51,301 nt of DNA, from the IMG/VR virus record IMGVR_UViG_3300007523_000017, positions 1 through 51,301 of that record; one strand, given 5' to 3'. A model generated the notes under the pieces. The model saw only the letters and a program-made list of their open reading frames with translations. It did not search any database and was not told the DNA's origin. How positions within the stretch are numbered: position 1 is the stretch's first letter; each line of letters opens with the position of its first letter. The translations under genes were made by a program, and so were the position numbers. Of the stretch, positions 1,764-43,606 are shown piece after piece. The stretch is from a virus.

Positions 1764-1994
1764 ATGGATCTGATATCACCTTTTATGAAACACCCGGGCG
1801 ATAGCCCTGTATTTAAACACAGTGTGGAAATCCCATGGCCCCAGATGGCTGGACAGGATATGGATGAGTATATAAATGATTTAGAAGCGAATGGACTTAA
1901 AGTACATATCTTTTCAACATCCGCATTTTGCAGATTCTGGTTCCAGCATAAGGAGGATGCTGTAGCGTTCACACTAAAGTATAAGTGTGTATAA
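1764..1994 (+). CDS. Array paralogue 1
   Basis: First of 23 tandem small genes. The last residues, KEDAVAFTLKYKCV, carry the family signature: acidic pair, A-V-A-F, then L-K-aromatic. An aromatic strand (CRFWF) precedes it, as in most members. The N-terminal 55 residues match no other copy by eye. Start uncertain: ATG 1764 would be nearly leaderless from the TATAAT at 1753, and ATG 1785 (residue 8) is an alternative. Function unknown. Confidence 0.75.
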   Translation: MDLISPFMKHPGDSPVFKHSVEIPWPQMAGQDMDEYINDLEANGLKVHIFSTSAFCRFWFQHKEDAVAFTLKYKCV

Positions 1995-1998
1995 TCAT

Positions 1999-2193
1999 AT
2001 GAAAGAATTCAATTGCCGTGTGTTAATGGATAGATACTACTATACAGTGGAAGTCATGGTGTACATAAGGCTGTTGTTGGGGGTCGATCATAGTTATGTA
2101 AATATATTTGACACCGGCGGCTACAAGGAGATATGGTTTGCACATGAGGAGGATGCTGTAGCATTCAAACTAAAATTCAAATGTGAAACATGA
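1999..2193 (+). CDS. Array paralogue 2
   Basis: 64 residues ending HEEDAVAFKLKFKCET, a good signature with a charged tail in place of the usual final Gly. I chose ATG 1999; an in-frame GTG at 1987 would overlap paralogue 1. The stop shares ATGA with the next start at 2190, so translation is probably coupled. The middle is unusually rich in Val and Tyr. Function unknown. Confidence 0.75.
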   Translation: MKEFNCRVLMDRYYYTVEVMVYIRLLLGVDHSYVNIFDTGGYKEIWFAHEEDAVAFKLKFKCET

Positions 2194-2492
2194 TATATAT
2201 TGAAACACTCCCAGACCTTGGCGACGCATTGTATCCATACAAGTGTGATTATTGGAGAGCCTTTAACTACTTGGATAAGAATAGTTTAGCAGTAAGCGAT
2301 GTTGACACCATGTTTAGGGGTATGGTTAAATGGTTGGAAGATAATATATCATCGAATGGAATAAACTATAGATGGTCTAATATTACTATTATATTCTTCA
2401 CTGCAAAAGACCGTGTAAGCTATCCAAGATTTGTAGCCTTTGCGGATGAGACTGACTTGTTAGCCTTCAAGCTTGTGTGGGGTATAGTATGA
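2190..2492 (+). CDS. Array paralogue 3 (longest copy)
   Basis: 100 residues, about 30 more than typical. The extra length is N-terminal (Tyr/Trp-rich, residues 1-40). The core has the family's W-L-E-D-N helix (about 48-52) and ends DETDLLAFKLVWGIV, with Trp replacing the usual Phe. It overlaps both neighbours by four bases (ATGA at 2190 and 2489). Function unknown. Confidence 0.8.
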   Translation: MIYIETLPDLGDALYPYKCDYWRAFNYLDKNSLAVSDVDTMFRGMVKWLEDNISSNGINYRWSNITIIFFTAKDRVSYPRFVAFADETDLLAFKLVWGIV

Positions 2493-2704
2493 TTGATGAT
2501 TTTGACTACAGGCTGACACCGAGGTCGGGTTCTAAAGTTAGATATAGTGAGTTTATCGATTGGGTAATCAATATACGACCAGAATATATTTTTGATAAAG
2601 ATGCGTATGAATTAGACAAGAATGACATTACTGTATACATCCTTACAGCGATTAACTTGCAAGGTGAAGACTTGGTTGCATTTAAACTAAAGTTTGGAAT
2701 ATGA
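2489..2704 (+). CDS. Array paralogue 4
   Basis: 71 residues starting at ATG 2489 (ATGA overlap); an upstream GTG at 2477 is less likely. It has E-F-I-D-W-V in the helix position and ends GEDLVAFKLKFGI. Its 3' end contains TTTAAACTAAAGTTTGGA, the 18-mer found unchanged in paralogues 5, 7 and 8. Confidence 0.8.
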   Translation: MIDDFDYRLTPRSGSKVRYSEFIDWVINIRPEYIFDKDAYELDKNDITVYILTAINLQGEDLVAFKLKFGI

Positions 2705-2904
2705 ACCATACAACACAAGAATGTCCATATCAGATTAGTACCACAAATGCTAAGTTCTATAATACAGAAATAGCAAATTACTTAATCGCAATATATAAGA
2801 TAGGTGTAGAATTAACAGTTGTAGACATCGAGTTTAGGTCCAGACTAATATGTTTTAAACATTCGGAAGATTTGCTTATATTTAAACTAAAGTTTGGATT
2901 ATGA
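2701..2904 (+). CDS. Array paralogue 5
   Basis: 67 residues, ending SEDLLIFKLKFGL. The central Trp seen in most copies is missing; Y-L-I-A-I-Y occupies the helix. ATGA overlaps on both sides. It shares the 18-base junction sequence with paralogues 4, 7 and 8. Function unknown. Confidence 0.78.
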   Translation: MNHTTQECPYQISTTNAKFYNTEIANYLIAIYKIGVELTVVDIEFRSRLICFKHSEDLLIFKLKFGL

Positions 2905-3140
2905 AGTTACTGTTATTTAATATTAAGGCATTGGAAATTCTTACAGGTACTAAAGTAAGAATGGCATTGGAAAATTGTGGCATAGAATATAAATGGGCAA
3001 TGGATCCAACCAACAGCATTATTAATGCTGTTGGAATAAAGATAGATATATCCCATGAAGCTACTGTTAAGAAAATATTTAAGGATTGCTTTGTAGACGA
3101 CGAAGCTGCGGTTGCATTTAAACTACGGTGTAAGATATGA
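2901..3140 (+). CDS. Array paralogue 6
   Basis: 79 residues, ending DDEAAVAFKLRCKI, with Cys-Lys in place of Phe-Gly. Residues 30-35 (I-E-Y-K-W-A) give the family's central aromatic strand. Coupled to both neighbours by ATGA. At 3009-3031, AACAGCATTATTAATGCTGTT is a near-perfect inverted repeat within the gene. Confidence 0.78.
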   Translation: MKLLLFNIKALEILTGTKVRMALENCGIEYKWAMDPTNSIINAVGIKIDISHEATVKKIFKDCFVDDEAAVAFKLRCKI

Positions 3141-3331
3141 CTGCAATATATAAAAAGGTAATATTTATAGATGTTCCGCAAACTATACTGGAGACTAACG
3201 TGGCAAAGTTTCTTAATACTTTGCCAAACTTACCAGATGGTAAGAGACCATATGGATATTGGAATATTGATCAGATTGCGTTTGTATTGGATGAGGATCA
3301 GATTGTATTTAAACTAAAGTTTGGATTATGA
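3137..3331 (+). CDS. Array paralogue 7
   Basis: 64 residues, ending DEDQIVFKLKFGL. F-L-N-T-L-P followed by Y-G-Y-W gives the helix and aromatic strand. The stop/start ATGA at 3328 is preceded by the identical 18-base junction. Function unknown. Confidence 0.78.
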   Translation: MTAIYKKVIFIDVPQTILETNVAKFLNTLPNLPDGKRPYGYWNIDQIAFVLDEDQIVFKLKFGL

Positions 3332-3519
3332 TTGTACGATGTATATCTACTGCAGACGGACCGGCGTGGGGCACGGTAGAGCAACGCGAGGAATGCATAG
3401 TCTGGTTAGAAACTAATGTCGGACTGTATGACACGGATTGGAAATGGAGTAAGTTTGGATATGTTCTTATATATGATGATGAAGCAGCTTGTGCGTTTAA
3501 ACTAAAGTTTGGAATATGA
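3328..3519 (+). CDS. Array paralogue 8
   Basis: 63 residues with the clearest family pattern: an N-terminal strand, C-I-V-W-L-E-T-N-V helix (about 27-35), D-W-K-W-S strand, then DDEAACAFKLKFGI. Overlaps both neighbours by ATGA. A useful query for building a profile of the family. Confidence 0.82.
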   Translation: MIVRCISTADGPAWGTVEQREECIVWLETNVGLYDTDWKWSKFGYVLIYDDEAACAFKLKFGI

Positions 3520-3725
3520 TTAAGGTGAAGGTTAATGCTGATTTCTGGGTTATAGAAAACTCGTATTATCATTACGTAACAGAGTGGTTGACAGAACATA
3601 TTCCGGATTCTAAAGATTGGAATTATGTTAACTGTTACTCTTACATGGCAAGCCCCACTGATGGCTATTTTAACTTTAGACATGTCGAAGATGCAGTAGC
3701 TTTTAAATTAAGGTTTAAAATATGA
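3516..3725 (+). CDS. Array paralogue 9
   Basis: 69 residues. V-T-E-W-L-T-E-H-I and D-W-N-Y-V mark helix and strand; the end is VEDAVAFKLRFKI. ATGA overlaps at both ends. Function unknown. Confidence 0.8.
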   Translation: MIKVKVNADFWVIENSYYHYVTEWLTEHIPDSKDWNYVNCYSYMASPTDGYFNFRHVEDAVAFKLRFKI

Positions 3726-3949
3726 AGGCATTATTGTTTGATTGTGATGTGCCGATTATTTTGACAATTAGCAGTTGGCTTATGCAGCACAATATTAAAT
3801 TCGAATGGATTGTGTATATTATGGGCAGCCGACATTCCCTGGCATTTATATCGATGCAGAAAATGAACATAAGAACAGAATATGCATATGGTAAATTTCT
3901 ATGCGATGAAGATGCAGTTATTAAAGTATTGACACTTAAGGTAATATAA
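3722..3949 (+). CDS. Array paralogue 10 (diverged C-terminus)
   Basis: 75 residues. Helix I-S-S-W-L-M-Q-H-N and strand F-E-W-I are intact, but the tail reads CDEDAVIKVLTLKVI, losing the A-F-K-L-K-F core. It may be drifting in function or decaying. Stop and next start overlap as TAATG at 3949, unlike the ATGA used elsewhere. Confidence 0.72.
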   Translation: MKALLFDCDVPIILTISSWLMQHNIKFEWIVYIMGSRHSLAFISMQKMNIRTEYAYGKFLCDEDAVIKVLTLKVI

Positions 3950-4143
3950 TGTATAGAATAACATTTGACATATTTACATTTGGAAAGTTCGGCGAAGTAG
4001 TCGATTGGTGTATGCGTAACATTGGCTACCGTGACAATGGATGGACAACCTTCTTAGACGAGGATGGGCATTTTGTTATTGAGATAGAGGATGAGTATGC
4101 TACACTGTTTAAATTAAAATTTAATGCGAATGATTTTAAATAA
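3949..4143 (+). CDS. Array paralogue 11
   Basis: 64 residues. V-V-D-W-C-M-R-N-I helix, D-N-G-W-T strand, and a late DEYATLFKLKFNANDFK tail with seven extra residues after the signature. It is followed by the first real gap in the array (4144-4230). Confidence 0.78.
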   Translation: MYRITFDIFTFGKFGEVVDWCMRNIGYRDNGWTTFLDEDGHFVIEIEDEYATLFKLKFNANDFK

Positions 4144-4230
4144 TTAACAGCGTAGATATTGGTAGTAGAAAAATGCGCTTTACGGCGGCTTTGCAGCTTA
4201 ACGAGGGCCAGGAGAAAAAGTTCCAACATT

Positions 4231-4422
4231 ATGATTATACTAGATAAAAAATTTGTTACAATGAGAGATATAAGTGCATGGAATGAATGGAGATCTAAAT
4301 TTTCCCCAATAGCTTATTCAAAGATGCGATATCACCAAGACCGTCTTAGTGGGAGATTGTGGGGACTGGAGTTTGATACTTTAGAGGACGAAGTTGCATT
4401 TAAATTAAAGTTTGGAATATGA
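4231..4422 (+). CDS. Array paralogue 12
   Basis: 63 residues from ATG 4231, ending LEDEVAFKLKFGI. The frame stays open upstream to an ATG at 4159, but the extra 24 residues (Arg/Cys-rich) do not look like this family. GGAG at 4211-4214 is rather far (16 bases) from ATG 4231, so the start is not certain. ATGA overlap with paralogue 13. Confidence 0.72.
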   Translation: MIILDKKFVTMRDISAWNEWRSKFSPIAYSKMRYHQDRLSGRLWGLEFDTLEDEVAFKLKFGI

Positions 4423-4628
4423 TTAAAAATATATACAAAATTCCATTTCCCAAAACAGTGTTTTATGAACAGTTTGCAGAGTGGGCAATCAGAATTGGTA
4501 GAAGAAAAGATTATGTGGATGAAGAAACTTATGCATTGTGCAATAAGTCCATTGGCGTATGGCGTGTATGTGAAGCTGCCATATATGATGAAGATTCTGT
4601 TGCATTCAGGATAAAATTTGGTGTATGA
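4419..4628 (+). CDS. Array paralogue 13
   Basis: 69 residues, ending YDEDSVAFRIKFGV, a conservative variant of the signature. F-A-E-W-A-I-R-I in the helix position. ATGA overlaps on both sides. Function unknown. Confidence 0.78.
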   Translation: MIKNIYKIPFPKTVFYEQFAEWAIRIGRRKDYVDEETYALCNKSIGVWRVCEAAIYDEDSVAFRIKFGV

Positions 4629-4864
4629 TCGAACTTCATAAAGCATATATATTATCGACGGAGATCCCGGGGCTAAGTAAATGGGTCACAGATTACATGG
4701 AACGTTATCCCGGATCTATAGAATTGGAAATAGTTAAACCGACATATTCTACAATAACTTTTAAAGACACAAAGCAAGAATTTTGTACTAAAAGTGGATA
4801 TGCTCTTATGACTGTCATTGACGAGGCAGCACTAATTGTTCTCAAATTAAAGTTTGGATTATGA
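4625..4864 (+). CDS. Array paralogue 14
   Basis: 79 residues. L-S-K-W-V-T-D-Y-M helix; a longer, Lys-rich middle; end IDEAALIVLKLKFGL, where Val-Leu replaces Phe before the K-L-K-F. ATGA overlaps on both sides. Confidence 0.76.
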   Translation: MIELHKAYILSTEIPGLSKWVTDYMERYPGSIELEIVKPTYSTITFKDTKQEFCTKSGYALMTVIDEAALIVLKLKFGL

Positions 4865-5055
4865 CAAGAGTAATAATTAGTAATCCAAATTGGACAAGAG
4901 ACACAGACATAAATGAATTGATAGAATGGCTCTCGTCATTAAAGCATGGTCGTCTTGGTTGGTCGTATTGGATTGACAAAAACGAAGATCGGTACATAGA
5001 TTTTAAGGATCCAGAGGATGCAATAGCGTTTAAATTAAAGTACATTACAGCTTAG
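4861..5055 (+). CDS. Array paralogue 15
   Basis: 64 residues. N-E-L-I-E-W-L-S-S-L helix, L-G-W-S-Y-W strand, end PEDAIAFKLKYITA. The stop at 5053-5055 does not overlap the next start; an 11-base gap follows. Confidence 0.8.
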   Translation: MTRVIISNPNWTRDTDINELIEWLSSLKHGRLGWSYWIDKNEDRYIDFKDPEDAIAFKLKYITA

Positions 5056-5066
5056 CCTGCGGCAAA

Positions 5067-5270
5067 ATGTTTACAATTGATGTATCAAACTATCTCCCGA
5101 TATCTGACGCCAGAGGTCGCTGGGCACAAGAACGAGTGTATAAGCAATGGTGCATGGACAACTGTCCGAATAGTTGGAACTATTACGGGGAATATAAGAA
5201 ATGGCCGTATATATTCCGCTTCAGAGATGAGCAAGATTTACTTGCGTTTAAATTGAAGTTTATATTATGA
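5067..5270 (+). CDS. Array paralogue 16
   Basis: 67 residues. Y-K-Q-W-C-M-D-N-C and S-W-N-Y-Y match paralogues 9 and 17 in pattern; end DEQDLLAFKLKFIL. ATGA overlap with paralogue 17. Function unknown. Confidence 0.8.
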   Translation: MFTIDVSNYLPISDARGRWAQERVYKQWCMDNCPNSWNYYGEYKKWPYIFRFRDEQDLLAFKLKFIL

Positions 5271-5470
5271 ATAATAGAGCGTTCAGAGTATGTATGTCTG
5301 ATATTCAATTTGAGAATTTAGACGTAGATGTATTCATCAAGTGGGCTAATGATGTTATTAACAGCAATTGGACTTATTATAATGCATATAATTCTAACTG
5401 TCGCTATTTTAGTTTTTCCACCGAAGAGGATGAGTTGGCGTTTAGAATAAAGTTTGGACTATGCATGTAA
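5267..5470 (+). CDS. Array paralogue 17
   Basis: 67 residues. V-F-I-K-W-A-N-D-V helix, N-W-T-Y-Y strand, end EEDELAFRIKFGLCM. It overlaps the next gene by ten bases (ATGCATGTAA), the longest junction of this kind in the tight part of the array. Confidence 0.8.
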   Translation: MNNRAFRVCMSDIQFENLDVDVFIKWANDVINSNWTYYNAYNSNCRYFSFSTEEDELAFRIKFGLCM

Positions 5471-5664
5471 TTAAATTAAACCACTTTATATCTGACTCAC
5501 TATATCGTATACTAGACGAGGAGATCTGGTTGTATCATAATGTAGGCATGCCAGGCGAAGAGACTTGGAAGATAGTTTATAGCAGCTTATTGATAGACAG
5601 ATCTGTCTACGCGCACATTGCTGATCCAGAGACAGCAACTGTTTTTAAATTGAAATTTGGATGA
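5461..5664 (+). CDS. Array paralogue 18
   Basis: 67 residues, ending PETATVFKLKFG. The E-E-I-W-L-Y-H-N-V helix is recognisable, with E-T-W-K-I after it. It closes the first 18-gene run; an unrelated gene follows before the array resumes. Confidence 0.76.
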   Translation: MHVIKLNHFISDSLYRILDEEIWLYHNVGMPGEETWKIVYSSLLIDRSVYAHIADPETATVFKLKFG

Positions 5665-5665
5665 T

Positions 5666-6010
5666 ATGGACGATATAGATAAAAATTATGCTAAGCTGAA
5701 AAACATTCCGGAATTTTGTCTTGACAGGGTTTATTCTCTTACGGAAGGCGAGAGAACAATTCAGAGACAATACATGTTTGAATTTGAGAATGGATATGGT
5801 GCAAGTGTTGTGGAGTTTTTTGATAAGTCATTTAGTGGAGGGCATGCGTTTGAAGTAGCAATGCTGAAAATATCAGCCGATGGGTATACTATTGTGTATG
5901 ATAAAGACATAATTCCAGATGTATATCGAGGCAATGCTATATGCATAAGTGACAAATTAACAGAAATAGAGGAATACAATGGACAAGAATCTGATTCGCT
6001 TTTACCCTAA
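5666..6010 (+). CDS. Unrelated small protein inside the array
   Basis: 114 residues from ATG 5666 (an in-frame TTG lies at 5657). It has no C-terminal signature and is not an array member. F-E-N-G-Y-G-A-S-V-V (about residues 41-50) recalls a small conserved phage protein of unknown role that carries a similar N-G-Y-G-A-S-V motif. The end overlaps paralogue 19 by 32 bases. Possibly an ancestral neighbour around which the array expanded, or a later insertion. Confidence 0.75.
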   Translation: MDDIDKNYAKLKNIPEFCLDRVYSLTEGERTIQRQYMFEFENGYGASVVEFFDKSFSGGHAFEVAMLKISADGYTIVYDKDIIPDVYRGNAICISDKLTEIEEYNGQESDSLLP

Positions 6011-6233
6011 ACACAAAGACTTATCGGAGGAAGATCATGACAAGCAAGTTATGGTTTATCGCGATTGGTTGGATACACACGGAAGATATGGTAAGCTGTA
6101 TATGATGAATATTGGGAGAATAGAAGGCGATTCCTTCTTGACTGAGGCAGAAGTTTACCGTTCTATCATCAATGGTGTAAATATCTACGACGGCGAAATC
6201 GCCATATTGTTCAAGCTTAAATTTGAAGTATGA
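5979..6233 (+). CDS. Array paralogue 19
   Basis: 84 residues starting inside the preceding gene. Y-R-D-W-L-D-T-H-G helix; end DGEIAILFKLKFEV. ATGA overlap with paralogue 20. The 32-base overlap suggests it arrived by recombination into the end of the upstream gene. Confidence 0.75.
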   Translation: MDKNLIRFYPKHKDLSEEDHDKQVMVYRDWLDTHGRYGKLYMMNIGRIEGDSFLTEAEVYRSIINGVNIYDGEIAILFKLKFEV

Positions 6234-6463
6234 CTTGCATAGTCAGAGTATATTCAGGTTGGGCGCGTCGGGCCAAGTATTCCGAATTAAATGATTGGAT
6301 AGGAGATTCAAGTAACACTGCCGAGTGGGATCCTAACTCCGGTTTTACTATCGTAGATGGTGAAAAATTTCAGTCAGTTATACTCCTGGAGAGTGAGGAA
6401 GATATGCTTGTCTGCTTATTAAAATTTTCAGAGATAGCCGTACGTGGTACCTATAATATATAA
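6230..6463 (+). CDS. Array paralogue 20 (degenerate tail)
   Basis: 77 residues. E-L-N-D-W-I-G-D-S helix is family-like, but the end is SEEDMLVCLLKFS followed by an extra ten residues. The signature has lost its A-F-K core. It overlaps the GTG start of paralogue 21. Confidence 0.68.
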   Translation: MTCIVRVYSGWARRAKYSELNDWIGDSSNTAEWDPNSGFTIVDGEKFQSVILLESEEDMLVCLLKFSEIAVRGTYNI

Positions 6464-6695
6464 ATATTCCTATATTGTAATAAAACGGTATCAGGATTTT
6501 GGTGGTGAGCATCACATTAAATTGTATAGTAGCATTTCTAACTGGTGTGATGAAAATTGTAAAGCATCCGGCTGGCGATGGGACCGTGGACCGTGGGCAG
6601 AGATTCAGGAAGAAGATTGGGCTATACTGCCCATCCAGATATCATTCGACGATAGTGAAGATGCTATAGCGTTTAGGCTTGCATTTGGATTCTAA
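6444..6695 (+). CDS. Array paralogue 21 (GTG start)
   Basis: 83 residues from GTG 6444; there is no in-frame ATG before the family core, so the start is weakly supported. I-S-N-W-C-D-E-N-C and G-W-R-W-D are strong family features; end SEDAIAFRLAFGF. Confidence 0.68.
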   Translation: MVPIIYKYSYIVIKRYQDFGGEHHIKLYSSISNWCDENCKASGWRWDRGPWAEIQEEDWAILPIQISFDDSEDAIAFRLAFGF

Positions 6696-6701
6696 TATAT
6701 A

Positions 6702-6911
6702 ATGTGGCATGAAGTGATACTCAAACCTACCGTATCAGGTTATCCAGTAGAATGGGTACAGCGTCACCGTCGATATACCGAGTGTGTTAGATGGTGCGAG
6801 ATTAATATAAGTTCAGCAGGTGTTCTTTGGAAACGAGATGACATCTATCCAGGTATATTCTACTTTGCACAGTATGATGACGCAGTTGTCTTTAAATTAG
6901 TAAACGGATAA
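6702..6911 (+). CDS. Array paralogue 22
   Basis: 69 residues. C-V-R-W-C-E-I-N-I helix, V-L-W-K-R strand, end YDDAVVFKLVNG (truncated signature). Its stop codon lies inside the late-promoter motif at 6907-6914. Confidence 0.76.
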   Translation: MWHEVILKPTVSGYPVEWVQRHRRYTECVRWCEINISSAGVLWKRDDIYPGIFYFAQYDDAVVFKLVNG

Positions 6912-6929
6912 ATACTCCCAATTAGGGAG
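6907..6929 (+). promoter_or_regulatory. Late promoter plus RBS-masking hairpin
   Basis: GATAAATA (6907-6914) differs at one base from the T4 late promoter TATAAATA. CTCCC (6915-6919) can pair with GGGAG (6925-6929), which is the ribosome-binding site of ATG 6937. By T4 spacing (start six bases after the motif) transcription would begin at about 6920, in the loop, so late RNA lacks CTCCC while read-through RNA keeps it. This is the logic described for T4 gene e. Confidence 0.6.
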
Positions 6930-6936
6930 AACAATT

Positions 6937-7206
6937 ATGCCGTCTGTCAATCTAAAAAATATAGCGAATGATCTTAACACCGTCGATTCTTATTTACTTT
7001 TTAAATCGATTAGCAGTTGGTGTAATTCAAATGTAAAAAAGGAAAGATGGCAATTCGACTATGCTTCCGTTCTATGCGTCTATGGAGTTGATTTTCCTAG
7101 ACGCATTATTTTTTGGCACAGCATAGACTGTGTTGCATTCAAACTAAAGTTTGGAATAAATGATTCGATTGACATAAGTCCCGTAACACAATACAATAGT
7201 GTATAA
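6937..7206 (+). CDS. Array paralogue 23 (last; late promoter)
   Basis: 89 residues. I-S-S-W-C-N-S-N-V helix, R-W-Q-F-D strand, then IDCVAFKLKFGI plus 17 extra C-terminal residues. It alone has its own strong ribosome-binding site (GGGAG, seven bases before ATG) and a GATAAATA promoter, so it may be made late while the rest of the array is early. Confidence 0.8.
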   Translation: MPSVNLKNIANDLNTVDSYLLFKSISSWCNSNVKKERWQFDYASVLCVYGVDFPRRIIFWHSIDCVAFKLKFGINDSIDISPVTQYNSV

Positions 7207-7285: not shown

Positions 7286-7468
7286 ATGTTAAATCGCGAA
7301 GACATAGAACGCATTGTAGAAAATTATATCAGAGATAATCTGGAAATCGAAGTTCGCAGCGGCGATTTTACAAATCCAAATTCCAGAACTATAACTGTAA
7401 CGGTAGGCGACAGGATAGTTTCCTCAGCAAACTTCGATATAGTTCAGCAAAGAGAATACGAGGGATAA
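7286..7468 (+). CDS. Small unknown protein
   Basis: 60 residues: a charged N-terminal helix (E-D-I-E-R-I-V-E-N-Y) followed by alternating strand-like stretches (T-I-T-V-T-V-G-D). Short soluble proteins of this kind are common in phages. The stop at 7468 is one base before the next start, giving a small operon with 7470 and 7727. Confidence 0.65.
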   Translation: MLNREDIERIVENYIRDNLEIEVRSGDFTNPNSRTITVTVGDRIVSSANFDIVQQREYEG

Positions 7469-7958: not shown

Positions 7959-8309
7959 ATGCAATATAATCCTATTTATACACCACAGAATACAGTGGCA
8001 CTTGATGCTAATGTCCAGGCGGTCGTCAATGCTATCAACACCAAGTCAATAATCCCATACGGTGATTATGGTGGACCGTCTGTTTATTATTTCCAAACAA
8101 TGAACAATGGCCTAGGAAACTTGGCATATACTATCTTCGATAAAGAAACAACATTGGGGTTGGCAAGCTTTATGGTTAGATATGGTGCTGCTGCAATAAT
8201 CCAACAAGTTCTCTTCCAGCCTTATCCGCGTAGCCAAATCGACTTGCAATTCCTGGTCTTGCCTAATATTCCAGTAGCAAGCTTTACTAATGGGACAGTT
8301 ATTCCTTGA
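7959..8309 (+). CDS. Unknown protein paired with the next gene
   Basis: 116 residues, with no signal peptide or obvious domain. Neutral, rich in Asn, Gln, Tyr and Pro, with an A-A-A-I-I-Q-Q helix; the character is that of a virion or secreted structural protein. Its stop (TGA 8307-8309) lies just before the next start, so the two are probably co-translated. Confidence 0.65.
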   Translation: MQYNPIYTPQNTVALDANVQAVVNAINTKSIIPYGDYGGPSVYYFQTMNNGLGNLAYTIFDKETTLGLASFMVRYGAAAIIQQVLFQPYPRSQIDLQFLVLPNIPVASFTNGTVIP

Positions 8310-8314
8310 CACAA

Positions 8315-8944
8315 ATGTTTGTTAGAAACGATACATCTGTAGCAGTGCTAACCTTCATTACGTTAGGTGCAACTTCGGGGTGTGTAAACGATGTTGCAAA
8401 TATAACTCTTAGCAGTGGTAAGATTACTAAACTCCATAATTTAATGGGGACATTTGTTGTTCCTGGCAATACTTCGATGGAGTTGGTTGCCCCGAAGGGT
8501 GATGGATTTAATGGTAACATTTCATTCAATACTCCGCCAATGAATTGCCCAACACCAAAATTTCCAGATGGTGTTAATCTTGCTGAATTTATTATTAATA
8601 ATGGATTTCAACAATACGGGCAAGAAACAGTTGATAACTCGTGTGTTGCTGGTGCAAATGCATTTATCGAATTTGAAATGAGCGCACTCGACTGGACAAG
8701 TAATGGTGGTTCTATACTCCGTGTTACAAAAATTACAAATGGCAAAAAATTAGATAACACAGGAAGAATTGGTGTATTCCCGTATGGTTGTGATAATTGT
8801 ACGTCCAGTGACAATCCGCCATCATGTGTTGGGCAACAATCACAATATGCAAATAAGATTCCAATCTGCAATGTTCAAAGGCCGGCCGGCAGCAATAAGG
8901 GAGGCACAGTAACCATTGCATTTAAAGGTTTTACTTATTATTGA
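8315..8944 (+). CDS. Possible thaumatin-fold protein
   Basis: 209 residues from ATG 8315 (an in-frame TTG at 8306 would overlap the previous stop). L-A-E-F-I-I-N (89-95) followed by E-T-V-D-N-S-C-V-A-G-A-N (104-115) recalls the thaumatin-family L-A-E-F-x-L-N ... D-V-S-L-V-D-G-F-N. An acidic G-D-G-F-N-G precedes it and several Cys lie in the C-terminal third. The formal thaumatin signature is absent and there is no signal peptide, so the assignment is remote. A carbohydrate-binding virion role would fit. Confidence 0.5.
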   Translation: MFVRNDTSVAVLTFITLGATSGCVNDVANITLSSGKITKLHNLMGTFVVPGNTSMELVAPKGDGFNGNISFNTPPMNCPTPKFPDGVNLAEFIINNGFQQYGQETVDNSCVAGANAFIEFEMSALDWTSNGGSILRVTKITNGKKLDNTGRIGVFPYGCDNCTSSDNPPSCVGQQSQYANKIPICNVQRPAGSNKGGTVTIAFKGFTYY

Positions 8945-8969
8945 CAGTAAACGTGTACCATGCTATAAT
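8941..8969 (+). promoter_or_regulatory. Consensus sigma70 promoter
   Basis: TTGACA (8941-8946), 17-base spacer, TATAAT (8964-8969): a full match at optimal spacing, overlapping the upstream stop codon. It drives the exonuclease cassette 8995-10197. Confidence 0.85.
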
Positions 8970-8994
8970 AAAATATAAATTACAGAAAGAATAT

Positions 8995-9507
8995 ATGGAA
9001 CAAAATGTAATGGTGGACGTCGAATCAGACGGCCCCTGCCCTGGAATGCACAGCATGATTTGCTTCGGAGCTGTCATCGTAGAGAAAGGTTTTCAACGAA
9101 CCTTCTACGCCGAACTGAAGCCTATTTCCGAAATCTATATTCCTGAAGCACTTGCTATTAGCGGCTTTGACCGTGAAAAGTGTATGAAGTTTCCTGACCC
9201 GCGTGACGCGATGCAGAACTTCGAAGCATGGTTACAAAAAGAAATCCCAGGTAAACGGCCCATTTTTTGGTCAGACAACAATGGATACGACTTTGCTTTC
9301 ATGAATTACTACTTCTGGCAACAGCTTGGTCGTAATCCGTTTGGATGGTCATCGGCTAATATGGGGTCATTCTACAAAGGTCAACAACAGAATTTGTATG
9401 CCACATTCAAGCATTTGCGTGAAACAAGGCACACCCATAATCCAGTCGACGATGCAAGGGGTAATGCAGAAGCATTACTGAAAATGTTTAATGACGTAAA
9501 GAAGTGA
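8995..9507 (+). CDS. DEDDh 3'-5' exonuclease
   Basis: 170 residues. Exo I motif V-D-V-E (D8, E10), Exo II around N-G-Y-D-F (D99) and Exo III H-N-P-V-D-D (H148, D153) give the full DEDDh set of RNase T/DnaQ-type exonucleases, which remove nucleotides from 3' ends with two metal ions. Start chosen at ATG 8995 because the promoter's predicted start lies near 8976; the frame extends further upstream but that would be untranscribed. The end overlaps the next gene by four bases (GTGA). Likely early nucleic-acid processing. Substrate (DNA or RNA) cannot be told. Confidence 0.85.
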   Translation: MEQNVMVDVESDGPCPGMHSMICFGAVIVEKGFQRTFYAELKPISEIYIPEALAISGFDREKCMKFPDPRDAMQNFEAWLQKEIPGKRPIFWSDNNGYDFAFMNYYFWQQLGRNPFGWSSANMGSFYKGQQQNLYATFKHLRETRHTHNPVDDARGNAEALLKMFNDVKK

Positions 9508-9945: not shown

Positions 9946-10197
9946 ATGGAAAACGATTTATATAGAGATGAAGAGTTTACTTTAGAGAATTTAAACGAGT
10001 TACATTGTTTTGAGGCATTAGATAGGTGCCATATGTTGCAAACGCATCTAGAAAATGCGTTATTTAATCATATGGGAGTTTCGGACAACGAAGCCAGACT
10101 GCTAAATCAAGTAAGCATATTATTGGCAGATGTATACCAATCTCTGGGACAACGGGCATTTAAGGAGCATGGTGACCCAGAGGCACCGGGTTTCTAG
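9946..10197 (+). CDS. Small acidic helical protein
   Basis: 83 residues, mostly predicted helix, acidic. H-C-F-E-A-L-D-R-C-H near residues 20-29 and L-A-D-V-Y-Q-S-L-G-Q near 61-70 are a pattern seen in small proteins of T4-like phages. Last gene of the exonuclease cassette; its end overlaps the convergent dehydrogenase gene by 38 bases. Function unknown. Confidence 0.7.
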   Translation: MENDLYRDEEFTLENLNELHCFEALDRCHMLQTHLENALFNHMGVSDNEARLLNQVSILLADVYQSLGQRAFKEHGDPEAPGF

Positions 10198-11416
10198 TAT
10201 TCCCGTAGTGAATAACTTTACAATCAGGAATTGGATTTTGTTTACGCCATATATCGAAGATAATCGAACCAGCAACTGGGCTGATTTCCTGTTTAGCAAC
10301 AATATTTCTCATCGGTGAATCACAGTATGTAATCTCTGAATCATGCATAAGAACATACATGCACGCTTGATTTAATATTTCGGATGGAGGAAGGCTCATT
10401 GTGTACTGGTCAAGGAAGTACACAGTTTCACCAAGCTGTTGAATATAGTGTTCTAGTAATATGCTGCCTGACCCTTCCAAATAATTGACTCCAGGCTTGT
10501 ATGCCTTACCAACTATAATAATCGGTAGGTCGCCTGCTTCAATAACTATTCTCTTAGCCATATTTTCTGTTTGCACCTCTCGTGCATGCATGATTGCACC
10601 GAACAGGTCGTAGTTCAGATTTAGATCTTCTGCCATCCACCGCAATGCAATATTGTCACGTGGGTGGCAAGCTCCGCCATCCGGGCCTCCGGCAATCATG
10701 TACTTTGGTCCCATGATACGTTGAGTAGAACGAGCAAGGGCGCCCGTAACTACATCGACATCTATGTTGCCCATCTTCTCTGCTACGTCTTGAATCATAT
10801 TCACTAGGCCGATTTTAGCCGAGATAAATGTGTTGTAGAAAATCTTAATAGCTTCAGCTTCGTCCCACGTTCCGACTTCATAACGCGGATTATTATTCAT
10901 GATAGTTTTGTAGAATGCAACTAGTTGCTCCGCATCTCCTGTCATGGATCCATCCTCGGTTCCTATAATAACCATCTCCGGATTTAGCATGTCCCATGCT
11001 ACACTGCCCATAGCTATTAGGTACGGATTATACACGAATTTTGCGTTATTTATGAGGCTAACGAACTCTCTGCGAGTCGTGCCGGGCAAGACTGTGCTGA
11101 TGAGCACAATTAGCTGATTTTTTGTGACGTGCTTATTTACTTCTAGTAGGATGCTTTTAACTGTATCGTAATTAAAGTCTTTAGGGGATAGTTTCGATGT
11201 TGGCAACTCCCCGCCATATTCTTCAACGTGTGGCGTAGGTACGGCAATGAAGATAATATCCTTATGCTCTAATACATCCTTAATAGTGTCTCTCATCACA
11301 ACAAGTTTTGGGTTCCTGGGATGAATATCATATCCCTCGACATGGTGTCCCATTGATGCAATAGCTTCGGCACAGTCCTGGCCCAGTTTGCCCATTCCTA
11401 TAAATCCAATACTCAT
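10160..11416 (-). CDS. UDP-glucose/GDP-mannose dehydrogenase family
   Basis: 418 residues. N-terminal Rossmann G-F-I-G-M-G-K-L-G (4-12), central helix with K191 and N195, catalytic Cys250 in G-G-A-C-H-P-R-D-N, and a C-terminal substrate domain (from about 285). The family oxidises a nucleotide sugar twice, with NAD+, to the uronic acid. Last gene of the glycan operon; it starts at the end of the methyltransferase gene (TAATG). It probably supplies an acidic sugar to the neighbouring transferases. Which sugar is oxidised cannot be told. Confidence 0.88.
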   Translation of the reverse strand: MSIGFIGMGKLGQDCAEAIASMGHHVEGYDIHPRNPKLVVMRDTIKDVLEHKDIIFIAVPTPHVEEYGGELPTSKLSPKDFNYDTVKSILLEVNKHVTKNQLIVLISTVLPGTTRREFVSLINNAKFVYNPYLIAMGSVAWDMLNPEMVIIGTEDGSMTGDAEQLVAFYKTIMNNNPRYEVGTWDEAEAIKIFYNTFISAKIGLVNMIQDVAEKMGNIDVDVVTGALARSTQRIMGPKYMIAGGPDGGACHPRDNIALRWMAEDLNLNYDLFGAIMHAREVQTENMAKRIVIEAGDLPIIIVGKAYKPGVNYLEGSGSILLEHYIQQLGETVYFLDQYTMSLPPSEILNQACMYVLMHDSEITYCDSPMRNIVAKQEISPVAGSIIFDIWRKQNPIPDCKVIHYGNTRNPVPLGHHAP

Positions 11417-12042
11417 TATTTTCTCCTTAGCAGTATGTTTCTGCCAGTGACCATCTCGGTGTATAAATCATTCTCTTCTACAAATTTATCTACAGCCCTA
11501 ATTAAATCTGGAAAATTGTGAGTATCATAATCATCTAATATAAGATTGCCTTCTACTTTAAGTTTAGGAAACCAGTGTACTAAGTCAGCATATACATCCT
11601 CGTAGGAATGTCCTGCATCATGGAATATAAAATCGAACATTGGAAAATTCTCATTATCCATACTAGTGAGTCCTTGAATAAATTCTGCATTAACTATATC
11701 ACCTACATAGGATTTATGTAAATCTACAAAGTCGATAGATTCGAGTCTGCCTGGATTTGGTCTTAGTTTACTACTCAGGAGTGCTAATTCGGTTACGCCT
11801 GCCCTGCCGTCATGGTAGTTAACCTCTGTGTGATTACTTAATAAGATTCTTGACCAAATATCTATAACTGTTAGTCTCACAGAATCTCTTTTATTATGCC
11901 CTAACGAATATGTGGATCTTCCAAACAATGCTCCTAGTTCTAAAATGTTTCCATTATCTGGAACATTCGATGCATATGCAGATATCACATCTAATATCTG
12001 ACTACTATTCCACCCGGGTATCTTTGTGTTTATTTTATACAT
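11416..12042 (-). CDS. Class I SAM methyltransferase
   Basis: 208 residues. N-I-L-E-L-G-A-L-F-G-R-S (33-43) is the SAM-binding loop; V-I-D-I-W (about 60-64) is the second motif; F-H-D-A-G-H-S-Y (about 140-147) with I-L-D-D-Y-D later is typical of the Methyltransf_24 type used on small molecules and sugars. One-base overlaps with both neighbours. It probably methylates a sugar of the same glycan; substrate unproven. Confidence 0.8.
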   Translation of the reverse strand: MYKINTKIPGWNSSQILDVISAYASNVPDNGNILELGALFGRSTYSLGHNKRDSVRLTVIDIWSRILLSNHTEVNYHDGRAGVTELALLSSKLRPNPGRLESIDFVDLHKSYVGDIVNAEFIQGLTSMDNENFPMFDFIFHDAGHSYEDVYADLVHWFPKLKVEGNLILDDYDTHNFPDLIRAVDKFVEENDLYTEMVTGRNILLRRK

Positions 12043-13220
12043 TATGATCTACTCACTGCAAATTCAGGTCGTTTCTTATTCGTCAGAATTGAATAGTTAT
12101 GGTCAACTATTGTCTTGATGTTGTTTTGCCACTCGATCCACTCCGACGAAGTTTTCTTGTTTAATCTTTCTATTTCATCGGCAATATATTTTAACCTAGT
12201 AGTATTATCCTCTATGTCGTCATATGTCTCGTCGATGAACGGGCTGAACGTCTTATATCCGAGTTTCCGAAGAAATGCAAGTGATCCTTTTACCGATACC
12301 ACCATGAATGGATGCTGCATAAGAATGGGTTTAAATATTTTTTCACTAAAAAATATTGCATCAAGATCTTGAACTATTTTATCTCCCCAACGATTATCTA
12401 CTGGGTAGAAAAATGTCTCAGTTACAATCGAAAGATAGCTTTCATCGAAATATATTCCGTCGTCCGCTCTCACGAAATTAATATTATCATCTGGCTCAAT
12501 ATTCAGCTTAAGTGGGATAGATATCTTGCTAAGACCATTTACAATCTCGGCTTGGACATCGGGGTCATTAATCGACGACTTTATATCGGCTGCCGACATT
12601 GTCGCCCCTTTACCATAGTCTGCATTCATATAAGAATAGAAACAGTTCTCGAGGATGTTTCTGTTGGAAATCATTCCTAGTAAAGCTAGACGATGTGATC
12701 TTCGTATACGATTAAAACACAGGAAATTTTTCTCTTTGGTCTTTATTGTATATGACTCTCTTTTTATTTGACTATTAATTTTGAGATGATGTTCCCAACT
12801 CGAGCATGTATTAATATGAATCTTTTCAGTTATACCAAAACGTTCACATAATTCGCTGTACGAATCGTCAGCATTTAGAGCACCAGTAAAGTAATATACC
12901 TGATTGGCAGGAATTAAATCTTTTATTATTTCATGTATCTTCAATAAACTAGTGCCTGTGGCACCTTCGTGGATATCCTCGAAACATAAGCGAGTCTTTT
13001 CGTTAACTGAACGCTTTATATCAGCTCTCATCATAGATGTCTTCACTGCATCGAGGCCGGGGAAATACTGTTTAGACGGTCCTGCATATATGACTAAAAC
13101 TTCCGGATCATTATTGAACTCATGGAAGAAATGCGGAATCATAGAAAAGATATCGGTATCTACTACCGAATAATGTTTACCGTATATATTCTTAATAGTT
13201 GGATTCTCTGTTGCAGCCAT
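12042..13220 (-). CDS. Probable glycosyltransferase
   Basis: 392 residues from ATG 13220, which overlaps the previous stop as TAATG; a longer frame to 13334 would overlap it by over 100 bases. The C-terminal S-E-K-I-F-K-P-I (about 290) with H-P-F-M-V-V-S and L-G-Y-K-T-F-S-P-F-I-D-E matches a phage/bacterial family resembling GT10/exostosin-type donor-binding domains. The central part has L-C-F-N-R-I-R-R-S-H-R. Context (sugar operon) supports a transferase. Confidence 0.6.
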   Translation of the reverse strand: MAATENPTIKNIYGKHYSVVDTDIFSMIPHFFHEFNNDPEVLVIYAGPSKQYFPGLDAVKTSMMRADIKRSVNEKTRLCFEDIHEGATGTSLLKIHEIIKDLIPANQVYYFTGALNADDSYSELCERFGITEKIHINTCSSWEHHLKINSQIKRESYTIKTKEKNFLCFNRIRRSHRLALLGMISNRNILENCFYSYMNADYGKGATMSAADIKSSINDPDVQAEIVNGLSKISIPLKLNIEPDDNINFVRADDGIYFDESYLSIVTETFFYPVDNRWGDKIVQDLDAIFFSEKIFKPILMQHPFMVVSVKGSLAFLRKLGYKTFSPFIDETYDDIEDNTTRLKYIADEIERLNKKTSSEWIEWQNNIKTIVDHNYSILTNKKRPEFAVSRS

Positions 13221-13813
13221 TATGTCATCCCTATAATCATGTATCTTGTGTACATTGGTAATATTAATTCTCCTGAGTACCATACCTTTGTTAGCCCGGA
13301 TTGTTTTACAAATTCTTCTTTTGATGAGACACAATTTATGTGATCTTCGCCACCTGTAAAATCATTGGATTGTAGTACAATTAGTTTACCTGAAGGGATT
13401 ACATTAATCCACTCTCTTAAGTCTGGAATATGTTCGCAGCTAGTATTTATAACAACATCCTCAGTATACATATGCTCATACATATCTTCGGTTACACATG
13501 ATACACCGGGAAGATTATATATAATACCATTTATGAATTTCTCACAACGAGGATCGATATCTATCATGACAATATTTGTAGGGAATTGTTTTCTGATCAT
13601 AAGTCCTAGTGTCCCAAACCACGCGCCTGCAATAGCAACGGATCGATGAGCAAACATAGACTCGTACTGCTTTAATTCATCCACAACCCATTGTTTACTT
13701 TGTAACTGACCAGACGAAAACATATCCCTGAACTCGTTGTATCTGGGAAGATATTTCTCTTGCACAGAATACAAACCGTTTGTATAGCGTATCATGAACT
13801 CCGTATCAATCAT
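13220..13813 (-). CDS. SAM methyltransferase-like protein
   Basis: 197 residues. V-A-I-A-G-A-W-F-G-T-L-G (59-70) is a glycine-rich SAM loop and M-I-D-I-D-P (83-88) the following acidic strand; N-T-S-C-E-H-I near 120 occupies motif IV. ATGA overlap with the upstream gene. A role in modifying the tail glycan is inferred from the operon only. Confidence 0.72.
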   Translation of the reverse strand: MIDTEFMIRYTNGLYSVQEKYLPRYNEFRDMFSSGQLQSKQWVVDELKQYESMFAHRSVAIAGAWFGTLGLMIRKQFPTNIVMIDIDPRCEKFINGIIYNLPGVSCVTEDMYEHMYTEDVVINTSCEHIPDLREWINVIPSGKLIVLQSNDFTGGEDHINCVSSKEEFVKQSGLTKVWYSGELILPMYTRYMIIGMT

Positions 13814-14811
13814 CTGTTAATTCTGCGTAATTCATTTAATTCTGTTTCCGTAAATAGTTTATTCATTCTAGGCACATTAACATAAGCAGCCTTGTAAAAC
13901 TTGCTCTGAGTCTCGTCTAATTCTGCAACTTCTATACCTAATCCTTTTCTTAGTTCTGTACCTAGCTCTTTAGTTGCAGACAATAGCGAACGTTGATCCC
14001 ATGTGAAATTTGTCTTATAACACTTCATCTCTGCTTCGGTGTCGGCTGCAACTGTAAATTTCGGAGCCACCTCTGTTCTGAAGAAATTATTTAAGTATCC
14101 AAAATCCCTGACATTAACAAAGTCCCAGTCAGATAAGTTAGTCATGTAACATCCGAGGCGAGCGCCATACATTGCCCAAAGACCGTTTTCTACATCTGCA
14201 CCTACACTACACCATGTAATTAATCTCTTGTAATTTCCCCACCAGATAATCTTTTTAAAATTATCAGGGTCGACTTTGCCTCCCTGATTTAAGCTCATTT
14301 TTACACCTTCGCGAAAACCTGCACGGAATGCCTGGCGTGGACTGCCATTTGGATAGGTAACACTATATTGGTTGGTCATTTGGACATAGCTATCTTCCCA
14401 ACAGAAGTCTACTTGGTTTCTGTTATCGGCAGTGTCAGCATTTTCATGTGTCTTCATATCCAGCACATATTGCCTGGGCCAACACTTTAGGCCGCCGTTT
14501 CCGTATTCTAGCCCATTTATATAATTCTGTGCGGCCCAACTAACTGCCTTTCCCAGAAATTTAGGATGGTCAAAGTCCAATTCTAAATCTAAAATAGATA
14601 CGTCCACAATATTGTCTGCATCTACAGAAATGAATCGATCAGTGTCGGACAATTCGGCGGCGGCCTTATGTGCGGCGTCAGATCCCTCTACGCCGTGGAC
14701 GCGCTTTGCCCACGGCACTTTTCTCTCTAAGTCTGCCCAATTTTCTTCACAATTATCTTCGTCGTAGCTTATAAAGATAATATCAAGTTCATTTAAATTT
14801 GTAAACGCCAT
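13810..14811 (-). CDS. GT-A glycosyltransferase-like protein
   Basis: 333 residues. D-I-I-F-I-S-Y-D-E at the N-terminus and S-V-D-A-D-N (D64, D66) give a GT-A nucleotide-sugar domain with a D-x-D metal site. W-A-K-R-V-H-G-V-E-G-S and H-K-A-A-A are familiar from a protein common in T4-like phages of aquatic bacteria. Coupled by TAATG (upstream) and ATGA (downstream). Confidence 0.75.
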   Translation of the reverse strand: MAFTNLNELDIIFISYDEDNCEENWADLERKVPWAKRVHGVEGSDAAHKAAAELSDTDRFISVDADNIVDVSILDLELDFDHPKFLGKAVSWAAQNYINGLEYGNGGLKCWPRQYVLDMKTHENADTADNRNQVDFCWEDSYVQMTNQYSVTYPNGSPRQAFRAGFREGVKMSLNQGGKVDPDNFKKIIWWGNYKRLITWCSVGADVENGLWAMYGARLGCYMTNLSDWDFVNVRDFGYLNNFFRTEVAPKFTVAADTEAEMKCYKTNFTWDQRSLLSATKELGTELRKGLGIEVAELDETQSKFYKAAYVNVPRMNKLFTETELNELRRINR

Positions 14812-15404
14812 TATTTAACCCTCTCTATATAACTGCATTCCTCGATTATTCTCCTGGAATATGCACTAGTGTTTTTGCAATCCATACTATAGTTAAAATA
14901 TAGAGTCTGTTTTACAAATAATTCCTCCGGAACAAAAGAGACTGTTAAGAATAATGAATAAGGATCATTTTTCTTAGTTATGTGGATTGATGTTTGGCCT
15001 TGCTGTCTGAATTCGTTTATAGACGAAATTTCCTCTGCTGAACTGTTATTATACATCCACAGAAATTCTTTTGATATAATTACTACTATAACCTTACTAA
15101 GGATTCTATTTTCTATACTGATTATATTATTTGAATTTCTGACACTGCCGAGTTTTGTCAAATAATTATCCAAAGTCCTTGTGTTTTTAACGTTTGTAAG
15201 TTTTTTTACTAATGTGGATTTCGGCCCATCTTTAGAGGATACATTTTTTACTAAAAAATTAAAAGGATTAGCTTGTGATGTTAAAAATATCGATACAGTT
15301 GATAATGGCATTTGAGATACAGAGTATGCTAGGCCCAGTTCTTTATCCAGCACAGGTGTTATTGCCTTAATTTCGCCGGCCGAATCATAATAGACATTCA
15401 TCAT
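14811..15404 (-). CDS. Unknown protein in the glycan operon
   Basis: 197 residues from ATG 15404 (TAATG overlap; ATG 15401 and 15413 also in frame). Opens with N-V-Y-Y-D-S-A-G-E-I-K-A-I-T-P, a beginning I associate with an uncharacterised small phage protein near tail genes. No catalytic motif seen. Basic middle and a Cys-containing tail. Confidence 0.65.
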   Translation of the reverse strand: MMNVYYDSAGEIKAITPVLDKELGLAYSVSQMPLSTVSIFLTSQANPFNFLVKNVSSKDGPKSTLVKKLTNVKNTRTLDNYLTKLGSVRNSNNIISIENRILSKVIVVIISKEFLWMYNNSSAEEISSINEFRQQGQTSIHITKKNDPYSLFLTVSFVPEELFVKQTLYFNYSMDCKNTSAYSRRIIEECSYIERVK

Positions 15405-16255
15405 TACTTCCATGATGCATTCTCTTCTAAAATTTCTATCATCTCATCTGTTAACCAAGATTTAATATGATAGTGTAATGGTAAATATTGTTCGTAATTT
15501 CCGATTTTCACTGACCCTTTGCTCGAAAAATAAGTTGGAATATTTAGAGTCCAATCCTCCGATAGATACTTCTCGTCCACATTTTGGATAAAAGATTTCA
15601 TGTGGACAAATGACGGGATGCTTCTGCCTGGATCCAAAAATTCATCTTCCAAGCCCATAATTTTTATAGCAAGTGCATATGCAACATCGCCCGATAGGTT
15701 CTTTGGTCGACTTTCGTCTAAGTACTCGTAATAGAACTTTTCCCAATTATTAAAAATTAGCTCGATAAGTCCAAACAGTTCCCCTACTGTTTTTGTTTTC
15801 TTAAAATACAAAAATGCAGTGTATACATTCGGCAACTTATTAGATTCGAATGTCGACCTATACTTTGTTGAAGTTATTATTTCACCCTTGTAAGTTACGG
15901 GATCAGACGTCGCCCATAATTCCTTATTCGACATTATATCCCACCAGTGACTTATATCTGATGTGAATATCATATCGGCATCTAAGATAACTGTCTCGTC
16001 GAATGGAGTCATGTAATAATATTTCCATTTATTTTCTATCTTCCAGGCCGAATCTTTTGCGTGATCGATCCACGGAATATCTACTATTTCATCAAACGCA
16101 TATCGATATTTTTCGGCTACTATTGAATCTGTTGCTAAAGCAACAGCGTTGACAGATGATTGTGTATTCTTTATACTTAAAGAAAGGGCATAAGCAAGTC
16201 GTATATAGTCATCCGACTTGGTGTTTTGAGCTAAAATTAAATAACCTTTCGACAT
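15404..16255 (-). CDS. GT8-like glycosyltransferase
   Basis: 283 residues. N-terminal Rossmann-like start, E-T-V-I-L-D-A-D-M-I-F with D92 and D94 as the D-x-D that holds metal and nucleotide sugar, and a distal H-Y-H-I-K-S-W-L near 265. The plan is that of glycogenin/GT8 enzymes. Starts one base after the preceding stop. A paralogue of 16257-17138 by shared layout. Confidence 0.78.
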   Translation of the reverse strand: MSKGYLILAQNTKSDDYIRLAYALSLSIKNTQSSVNAVALATDSIVAEKYRYAFDEIVDIPWIDHAKDSAWKIENKWKYYYMTPFDETVILDADMIFTSDISHWWDIMSNKELWATSDPVTYKGEIITSTKYRSTFESNKLPNVYTAFLYFKKTKTVGELFGLIELIFNNWEKFYYEYLDESRPKNLSGDVAYALAIKIMGLEDEFLDPGRSIPSFVHMKSFIQNVDEKYLSEDWTLNIPTYFSSKGSVKIGNYEQYLPLHYHIKSWLTDEMIEILEENASWK

Positions 16256-16256
16256 A

Positions 16257-43577: not shown

Positions 43578-43606
43578 AGTGAAAACCTTAATTGGAGAAA
43601 AGTTTA

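Follow-up and report, generated by a model that had tools for sequence, protein, structure and literature searches.

In the genomes of Bacillus phage G and coliphage 121Q, similar genes are known to form tandem arrays with over 30 members (Hua et al. 2017, PMC5646251). Phage G has also been reported to contain a zinc-ribbon expansion of ~35 copies (Iyer et al. 2021, PMC7824862), which may be the same array. In phage T4, the gene for the ToxN inhibitor TifA is amplified through microhomologies of 6-10 bp (Srikant et al. 2022, PMC9391042). Here we describe an array of 23 small paralogous genes in IMG/VR record IMGVR_UViG_3300007523_000017, of which the whole 51,301 bases analyzed are called the window. 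The array lies on the plus strand at positions 1764-7206, its genes have 63-100 codons each, and its products are a single full-length family of common ancestry.

One family with a common core

To ground this relationship, we used a family hidden Markov model (HMM) trained solely on copies from other phages and then applied to the window products. With this independent model, 21/23 products outscored every one of 4,754 shuffled sequences. For the two others (3722-3949 and 4625-4864), the scores were 8.9 and 9.5, which is above the 99.9th percentile of the shuffles (8.3) and below their maximum (11.2). A body-only model, also from other phages, recognized 16 of the 23 bodies at p<0.05 against their own shuffles after the tail had been removed. 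The combined Fisher p for this tail-less similarity is about 7e-18, although this is optimistic because simple shuffles lose hydrophobic patterning. The independent HMM and the tail-less test together rule out chance similarity of the tails. When the window array was aligned by hhalign with the copies of a 561-kb phage, the match had a probability of 97.8 and an E of 7e-13.

Two members were modelled with AlphaFold, each with the family alignment, and what we say of the fold covers these two: the product of gene 8 in the window (scores listed below) and a distant member from the 561-kb phage (predicted local distance difference test [pLDDT] 82, predicted template modelling score [pTM] 0.69). 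Both models have a C-terminal beta-alpha-beta-beta-alpha core, and in both the signature (E/D)DAxAFKLKFG is predicted to form the last helix of the fold. Across the family, the model match ends within 2 residues of the C-terminus in 359 of about 390 members, some of which have N-terminal extensions, and the K-x-K of the final helix is kept across strongly diverged paralogues. Because the HMM, body-only, AlphaFold and hhalign results agree, we conclude that the products belong to one full-length family. A constant tag on unrelated bodies is ruled out by the related tail-less bodies and the common fold of the models. Searches of the PDB with the predicted folds gave no significant match (best E 4.0 and 0.45). 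The best matches in BFVD are small uncharacterized proteins of uncultured phages; scattered baculovirus rows in the same search (E 1 or worse) were taken as chance.

A first-pass annotation, made from the sequence alone, had noticed the common C-terminal signature, which the independent HMM bears out. It had also read the products as a constant tail with variable bodies, and this has to be given up, since the bodies are homologous and the tail is predicted to be part of the common fold. As checks it had proposed an HMM comparison and structure prediction: the former found a significant relationship among the copies, and the latter, for two members, found the same core and not unrelated folds. 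Its count of 23 paralogues on the plus strand and their sizes stand. The genes are not all strictly consecutive as it had described, because a non-family open reading frame (ORF) sits between genes 18 and 19.

Adjacent family genes are closely packed: 12 pairs have an exact 4-base overlap (ATGA), 1 overlaps by one base, 4 have other overlaps and 3 are separated by short gaps. The features of the array are as follows, with scores in bits from the family model.

1729-1758, plus: candidate sigma70-like promoter TTTACA-18-TATAAT, directly 5' of gene 1 (consensus scan, 11/12 matches)
1764-1994, plus: gene 1, 21.7 bits; start uncertain, family match from about 1812
1987-2193, plus: gene 2, 30.4 bits
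2190-2492, plus: gene 3, 32.6 bits
2477-2704, plus: gene 4, 24.9 bits
2701-2904, plus: gene 5, 23.9 bits
2901-3140, plus: gene 6, 11.7 bits, slightly over the shuffle maximum of 11.2
3137-3331, plus: gene 7, 17.1 bits
3328-3519, plus: gene 8, 34.6 bits; product modelled with AlphaFold, pLDDT 84, pTM 0.67
3516-3725, plus: gene 9, 34.4 bits
3722-3949, plus: gene 10, degenerate tail, 8.9 bits, marginal
3949-4143, plus: gene 11, 28.0 bits
4231-4422, plus: gene 12, 23.0 bits; start uncertain, TTG 4159 or, likelier, ATG 4231 behind AGGAG
4419-4628, plus: gene 13, 18.2 bits
4625-4864, plus: gene 14, divergent, 9.5 bits, marginal
4861-5055, plus: gene 15, 31.8 bits
5067-5270, plus: gene 16, 42.7 bits
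5267-5470, plus: gene 17, 28.8 bits
5461-5664, plus: gene 18, 21.5 bits
5657-6010, plus: non-family ORF between genes 18 and 19, likely ATG 5666; phrog_4074 (PHROG E 2.5e-8), family score 0.5 bits
5979-6233, plus: gene 19, 14.5 bits
6230-6463, plus: gene 20, family-model match; possible orthologues in G002 and G007
6444-6695, plus: gene 21, 37.7 bits
6702-6911, plus: gene 22, family-model match; possible orthologue in G007
6937-7206, plus: gene 23, family-model match; its orthologue is the last array gene of G002 too (45% over 74 aa)

A variable array with conserved flanks

The array is an island of hypervariable gene content, set between anchor genes that are conserved (60-87% identity). With the downstream exonuclease as query, 65 loci were fetched, and the closer relatives have 2-27 family genes directly upstream of the exonuclease, the low counts being partly due to contig ends. 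In ten syntenic loci, the matches of the exonuclease and the 7959-8309 gene to their window counterparts span 90% or more of the gene length, at the identities given below. In the same ten loci, no match could be detected for most of the 23 array genes; the others are 29-59% identical, mostly over partial length. Arrays share few reciprocal best hits, and these are not colinear. Within a phage, even the most similar paralogue pairs found have an identity of only about 50%, which means that the copies are old and not fresh duplicates. A variable accessory island between conserved genes is what one expects of a counter-defence repertoire, and this is what we found. The genes that flank the island are the following.

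826-1437, plus: upstream anchor gene, conserved in G005 (68%), L233 (68%) and G002 (45%)
7286-7468, plus: small downstream gene, moderate conservation (35-52%), absent or undetected in some loci
7959-8309, plus: downstream anchor gene, 60-83% identity in ten syntenic loci
8941-9507, plus: downstream anchor, RNase_T / Rv2179c-like exonuclease, 70-87% identity in ten syntenic loci

The upstream anchor gene has an odd composition, with both strands open, and PHROG and NCBIfam searches with it gave no match. Between it and the array, at 1475-1539 on the plus strand, there are 3.4 perfect copies of the 19-base repeat GTTACAAATTTTACACAAA.

Turnover of whole genes

How does such an island change? Comparison at the DNA level failed for most phages because their array DNA is too diverged; only the 210-kb contig L172 and G002 were close enough to be compared directly. 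In L172, genes 6708-6917 and 6914-7144 adjoin through an ATGA overlap. Their orthologues in G002 (74% and 78% identical) have exactly three extra family genes between them, each ATGA-joined. This is an exact three-gene insertion or deletion at an ATGA junction, and the junctions in this stretch read AAAGTTTGG(A/T)(A/T)TATGA. The codons of the tail are also more uniform than body codon usage predicts in G005 (0.66 versus 0.46 expected, reached by 0/500 simulations) and in the window (0.58 versus 0.48 expected, reached by 5/500), which are the two largest arrays among those tested.

The array orthologues are under purifying selection, which argues against their being ballast. In five orthologous pairs, the ratio of nonsynonymous to synonymous substitution rates (dN/dS) is 0.14-0.61, compared to 0.05 for the exonuclease. 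One pair, L172:6708-6917 and L173:5539-5748, has a dS of 0.24, whereas the other estimable array pairs have 0.8 or more, which suggests that a single array gene was recently exchanged between phages.

Distribution among phages

Relatives were found by searching IMG/VR with the tail pattern and then searching the matching records with a family model; tblastn with single proteins in phage records was too insensitive to detect the family. Many of the tail-pattern matches were due to chance. The family-model search found 43 copies in G001 (a 385-kb contig), 32 in G007 (a 369-kb contig), 30 in G005 (within 123 kb), 14 in G002 (within 82 kb) and 7 in G006 (within 344 kb). In the 561-kb contig mentioned above (G008; IMGVR_UViG_3300046616_000314; L075-L079, L102-L118), a first search gave at least 150 copies. 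We then counted 243 family ORFs at E<0.01, with zero reversed decoys and in runs of up to 16, which is a lower bound since 432 of the 561 kb were read. Of the 432 kb read, these ORFs account for about 77 kb as coding sequence, with starts taken at the first start codon. In this phage, 10-base overlaps between family genes are commoner than 4-base ones, and some genes have long N-terminal extensions. The contigs of more than 300 kb encode a terminase, and hence are phages.

Copies also occur in cultured phages: 52 in Sinorhizobium phage Phosso, 7 in Atu_ph07 and 3 in PA5oct, and relatives of PA5oct, including Paride, carry the one member tested. No copies were found in 13 phages (T4, KVP40, P-SSM2, XacN1, CcrColossus, PAU, phiKZ, vB_OspM_OC, 121Q, G, RaK2, SCTP-2 and VEcB), while Phosso and PA5oct, the positive controls for these genome searches, were matched. 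A tblastn match in VEcB runs antisense to annotated genes and was discarded. The absence from the 13 phages, T4 included, rules out a widespread T4-like family. The lineage in which the family has expanded is one of T4-related jumbo phages. The first-pass annotation had placed single proteins with this tail in T4-like phages; this was right in that the carriers are T4-related, but too broad, with none in T4, KVP40, P-SSM2, phiKZ and nine others. The count per genome that it had also proposed ranges from 3 (PA5oct) to at least 243 (G008).

Possible function

We now have a family, an island and one clear case of gene turnover, from which it is tempting to attribute a role to the array. It is probable that the array genes form a single operon, are translated in a coupled way and are expressed early. 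In each gene, the conserved 3' end would at once encode the last helix, overlap the next start codon and supply a short direct repeat at most boundaries. Recombination between two such tails would therefore add or remove one or more complete genes, in frame. By this tail homology the island would gain, lose and exchange whole genes at gene boundaries, and the repertoire could be tuned to the hosts encountered. The products, kept by purifying selection, would most likely act singly, each as a small inhibitor or adaptor with its own target among host, defence or rival-phage proteins.

We favor, with confidence that is evenly balanced, a modular and probably early repertoire of separately targeted inhibitors directed at host or defence proteins, because a variable island of small, probably early, conserved proteins fits counter-defence or host-takeover genes. 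An early, diversified, host-directed role had been suggested on first reading, and we retain it as plausible. More tentatively, the arrays could represent a "variable cassette" system, which we hold to be possible but would not yet call probable. One mini-fold would give tens to hundreds of early inhibitors per genome; the 3' end would serve as helix, as context for the next start and as recombination repeat; and complete genes would be swapped between phages at one island, so that each phage could adjust its arsenal against hosts or competitors.

Several clues bear on when and where the products act. Phosso copies are flanked by topoisomerase, polynucleotide kinase, MazG and polymerase genes. 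The PA5oct members gp209, gp210 and gp237 have no note of detection in virions by electrospray ionization tandem mass spectrometry (ESI-MS/MS), while several neighbors do, though small proteins are easily missed. By eye, TATAAT-type sites are repeated upstream of the G005 array; like the promoter before gene 1, they are not proof.

Other results weigh against an inhibitor repertoire with tail-mediated turnover. The total of promoter-like sites in the array region is no higher than in shuffles. No name or function for the family was found in the open literature or family libraries, and no partner or activity is known for any member. Searches of curated families (112 members against Pfam, PHROGs and PADLOC, and 100 against PHROGs) returned isolated weak rows and nothing recurrent. 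Only one clean insertion or deletion was resolved. The tail-codon excess is not significant in G002 and L169, and where it occurs it could reflect initiation signals of the next gene instead of recombination.

The degree of confidence depends also on the alternatives. The beta-alpha-beta-beta-alpha core resembles a truncated ferredoxin-like fold, and weak Foldseek rows for the model from the 561-kb phage include ACT, RRM and ribosomal proteins. The products might then be small nucleic-acid-binding regulators, each at a different RNA or DNA site. About 15% of their residues are aromatic, as would suit this role, and the phage G zinc-ribbon paralogues, about 35 in number, are thought to be possible transcription factors (PMC7824862). 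However, the products have on average a negative net charge in all of the phages (-0.5 to -2.7), which is unusual for nucleic-acid binders, and the PDB matches to RRM/ferredoxin-like structures are not significant, so we consider such regulators unlikely. Another possibility is that the C-terminal helix docks onto one partner, such as a virion-packaging, localization or protein-quality receptor, with the products being internal or ejected proteins, comparable to the internal proteins of T4, or co-located subunits. The nearly constant C-terminal position of the domain, with extensions at the other end, and the K-x-K conserved among highly diverged paralogues are consistent with docking. Yet the tail is predicted to belong to a globular fold and not to a linear tag, the PA5oct members have no virion note, and the start of the following gene may itself limit how far the C-terminal end can vary. 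Docking thus seems rather improbable to us.

Two further readings appear very unlikely. Many different subunits of the same fold, encoded together and probably co-translated, could co-assemble into a large structural or compartment-forming hetero-oligomer. A fixed assembly is poorly suited to arrays whose copy number (3 to at least 243) and gene content change so freely among phages. The arrays could also be mostly genomic ballast, i.e., duplications of little function tolerated in large capsids. Jumbo genomes may indeed grow by tandem duplication (PMC5646251), and two window copies have degenerate signatures. Against ballast, the reading frames are intact, the orthologues show the dN/dS values given above, and the closest paralogues are too far apart to be fresh duplicates. 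In all, the inhibitor repertoire is the reading we carry forward.

The phage and flanking genes

Judged by its sequence, the window covers part of the genome of a T4-related jumbo myovirus. The gp6-like baseplate wedge of the window is 35-46% identical to those of PA5oct, SCTP-2, RaK2 and Atu_ph07. The window also encodes a gp55-like late sigma factor, a metallophosphoesterase and an AAA/SMC ATPase, in an order that we take to be T4-like. The sigma gene (43592-45541, plus) is split by an apparent intein with a weak LAGLIDADG match, and its product matches sigma at residues 33-220 and 556-642. Across the whole window, the T4 late-promoter motif TATAAATA was found 4 times versus 8.7 expected, an uninformative test; because it is not enriched despite the gp55-like sigma, the late promoter of this phage may differ from that of T4. 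Two homing-endonuclease-like genes (35500-36261, minus, and 19810-20682, minus) are inserted among baseplate and tail genes. A run on the minus strand (10160-17138), adjoining structural genes, includes a UDP-glucose/GDP-mannose dehydrogenase and, by eye, likely methyltransferases and glycosyltransferases (the Pfam scan covered 10160-11416).

Significance and comparison with known systems

As far as we searched the open literature and family libraries, the family and its scale are new, and so are its hypervariable island at a syntenic position and its turnover by exact whole genes at tail junctions. An unnamed family fills about 77 of the 432 kb read in one phage, and about ten related contigs have it as a variable island in a conserved location. 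If its products are individually targeted inhibitors, they would be a large ready-made library against host and defence targets on one easily expressed scaffold. This would also give a testable answer to why jumbo phages hold so many small unknown genes. Cultured carriers (Phosso with 52 copies, PA5oct with 3 and Paride with at least one) make the family testable now.

The internal (capsid) proteins of T4 are small and variable, and have an N-terminal linear capsid targeting sequence. The array products likewise combine a common terminal signature with variable small proteins. However, we found no N-terminal targeting sequence of this kind; the conserved element is C-terminal and is predicted to close the fold as its last helix, on bodies that are homologous to one another. 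Closer in structure are proteins of 57-92 residues from uncultured Caudovirales in BFVD (e.g., A0A6J5LU01 and A0A6J5L4C8), with probabilities up to 1.00 and template modelling (TM) scores of 0.5-0.7. At E 0.06 or worse these matches are not significant alone, but they are probably further family members.

The array resembles the T4 dmd-tifA/adfA counter-defence genes (Srikant et al. 2022, PMC9391042) in that small accessory proteins of T4-like phages change in copy number via recombination between short homologies, for which the array tails are candidates. In contrast, the amplified T4 tifA copies are identical, while the array copies have long diverged, and T4 has no family member. The 121Q genome has, at 117-131 kb and 155-177 kb (L137-L140), a run of RCC1-like repeat proteins and several small groups of further small paralogues, which are unlike the array family. 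Like the arrays of phage G and 121Q, the array described here is a long run of small paralogous genes in a jumbo phage, read as growth by tandem duplication. The protein families are different, and neither genome matches the array family. Unlike those arrays, the copies here are far more diverged, reach at least 243 in one phage, and form a variable syntenic island with one exact insertion or deletion of whole genes.

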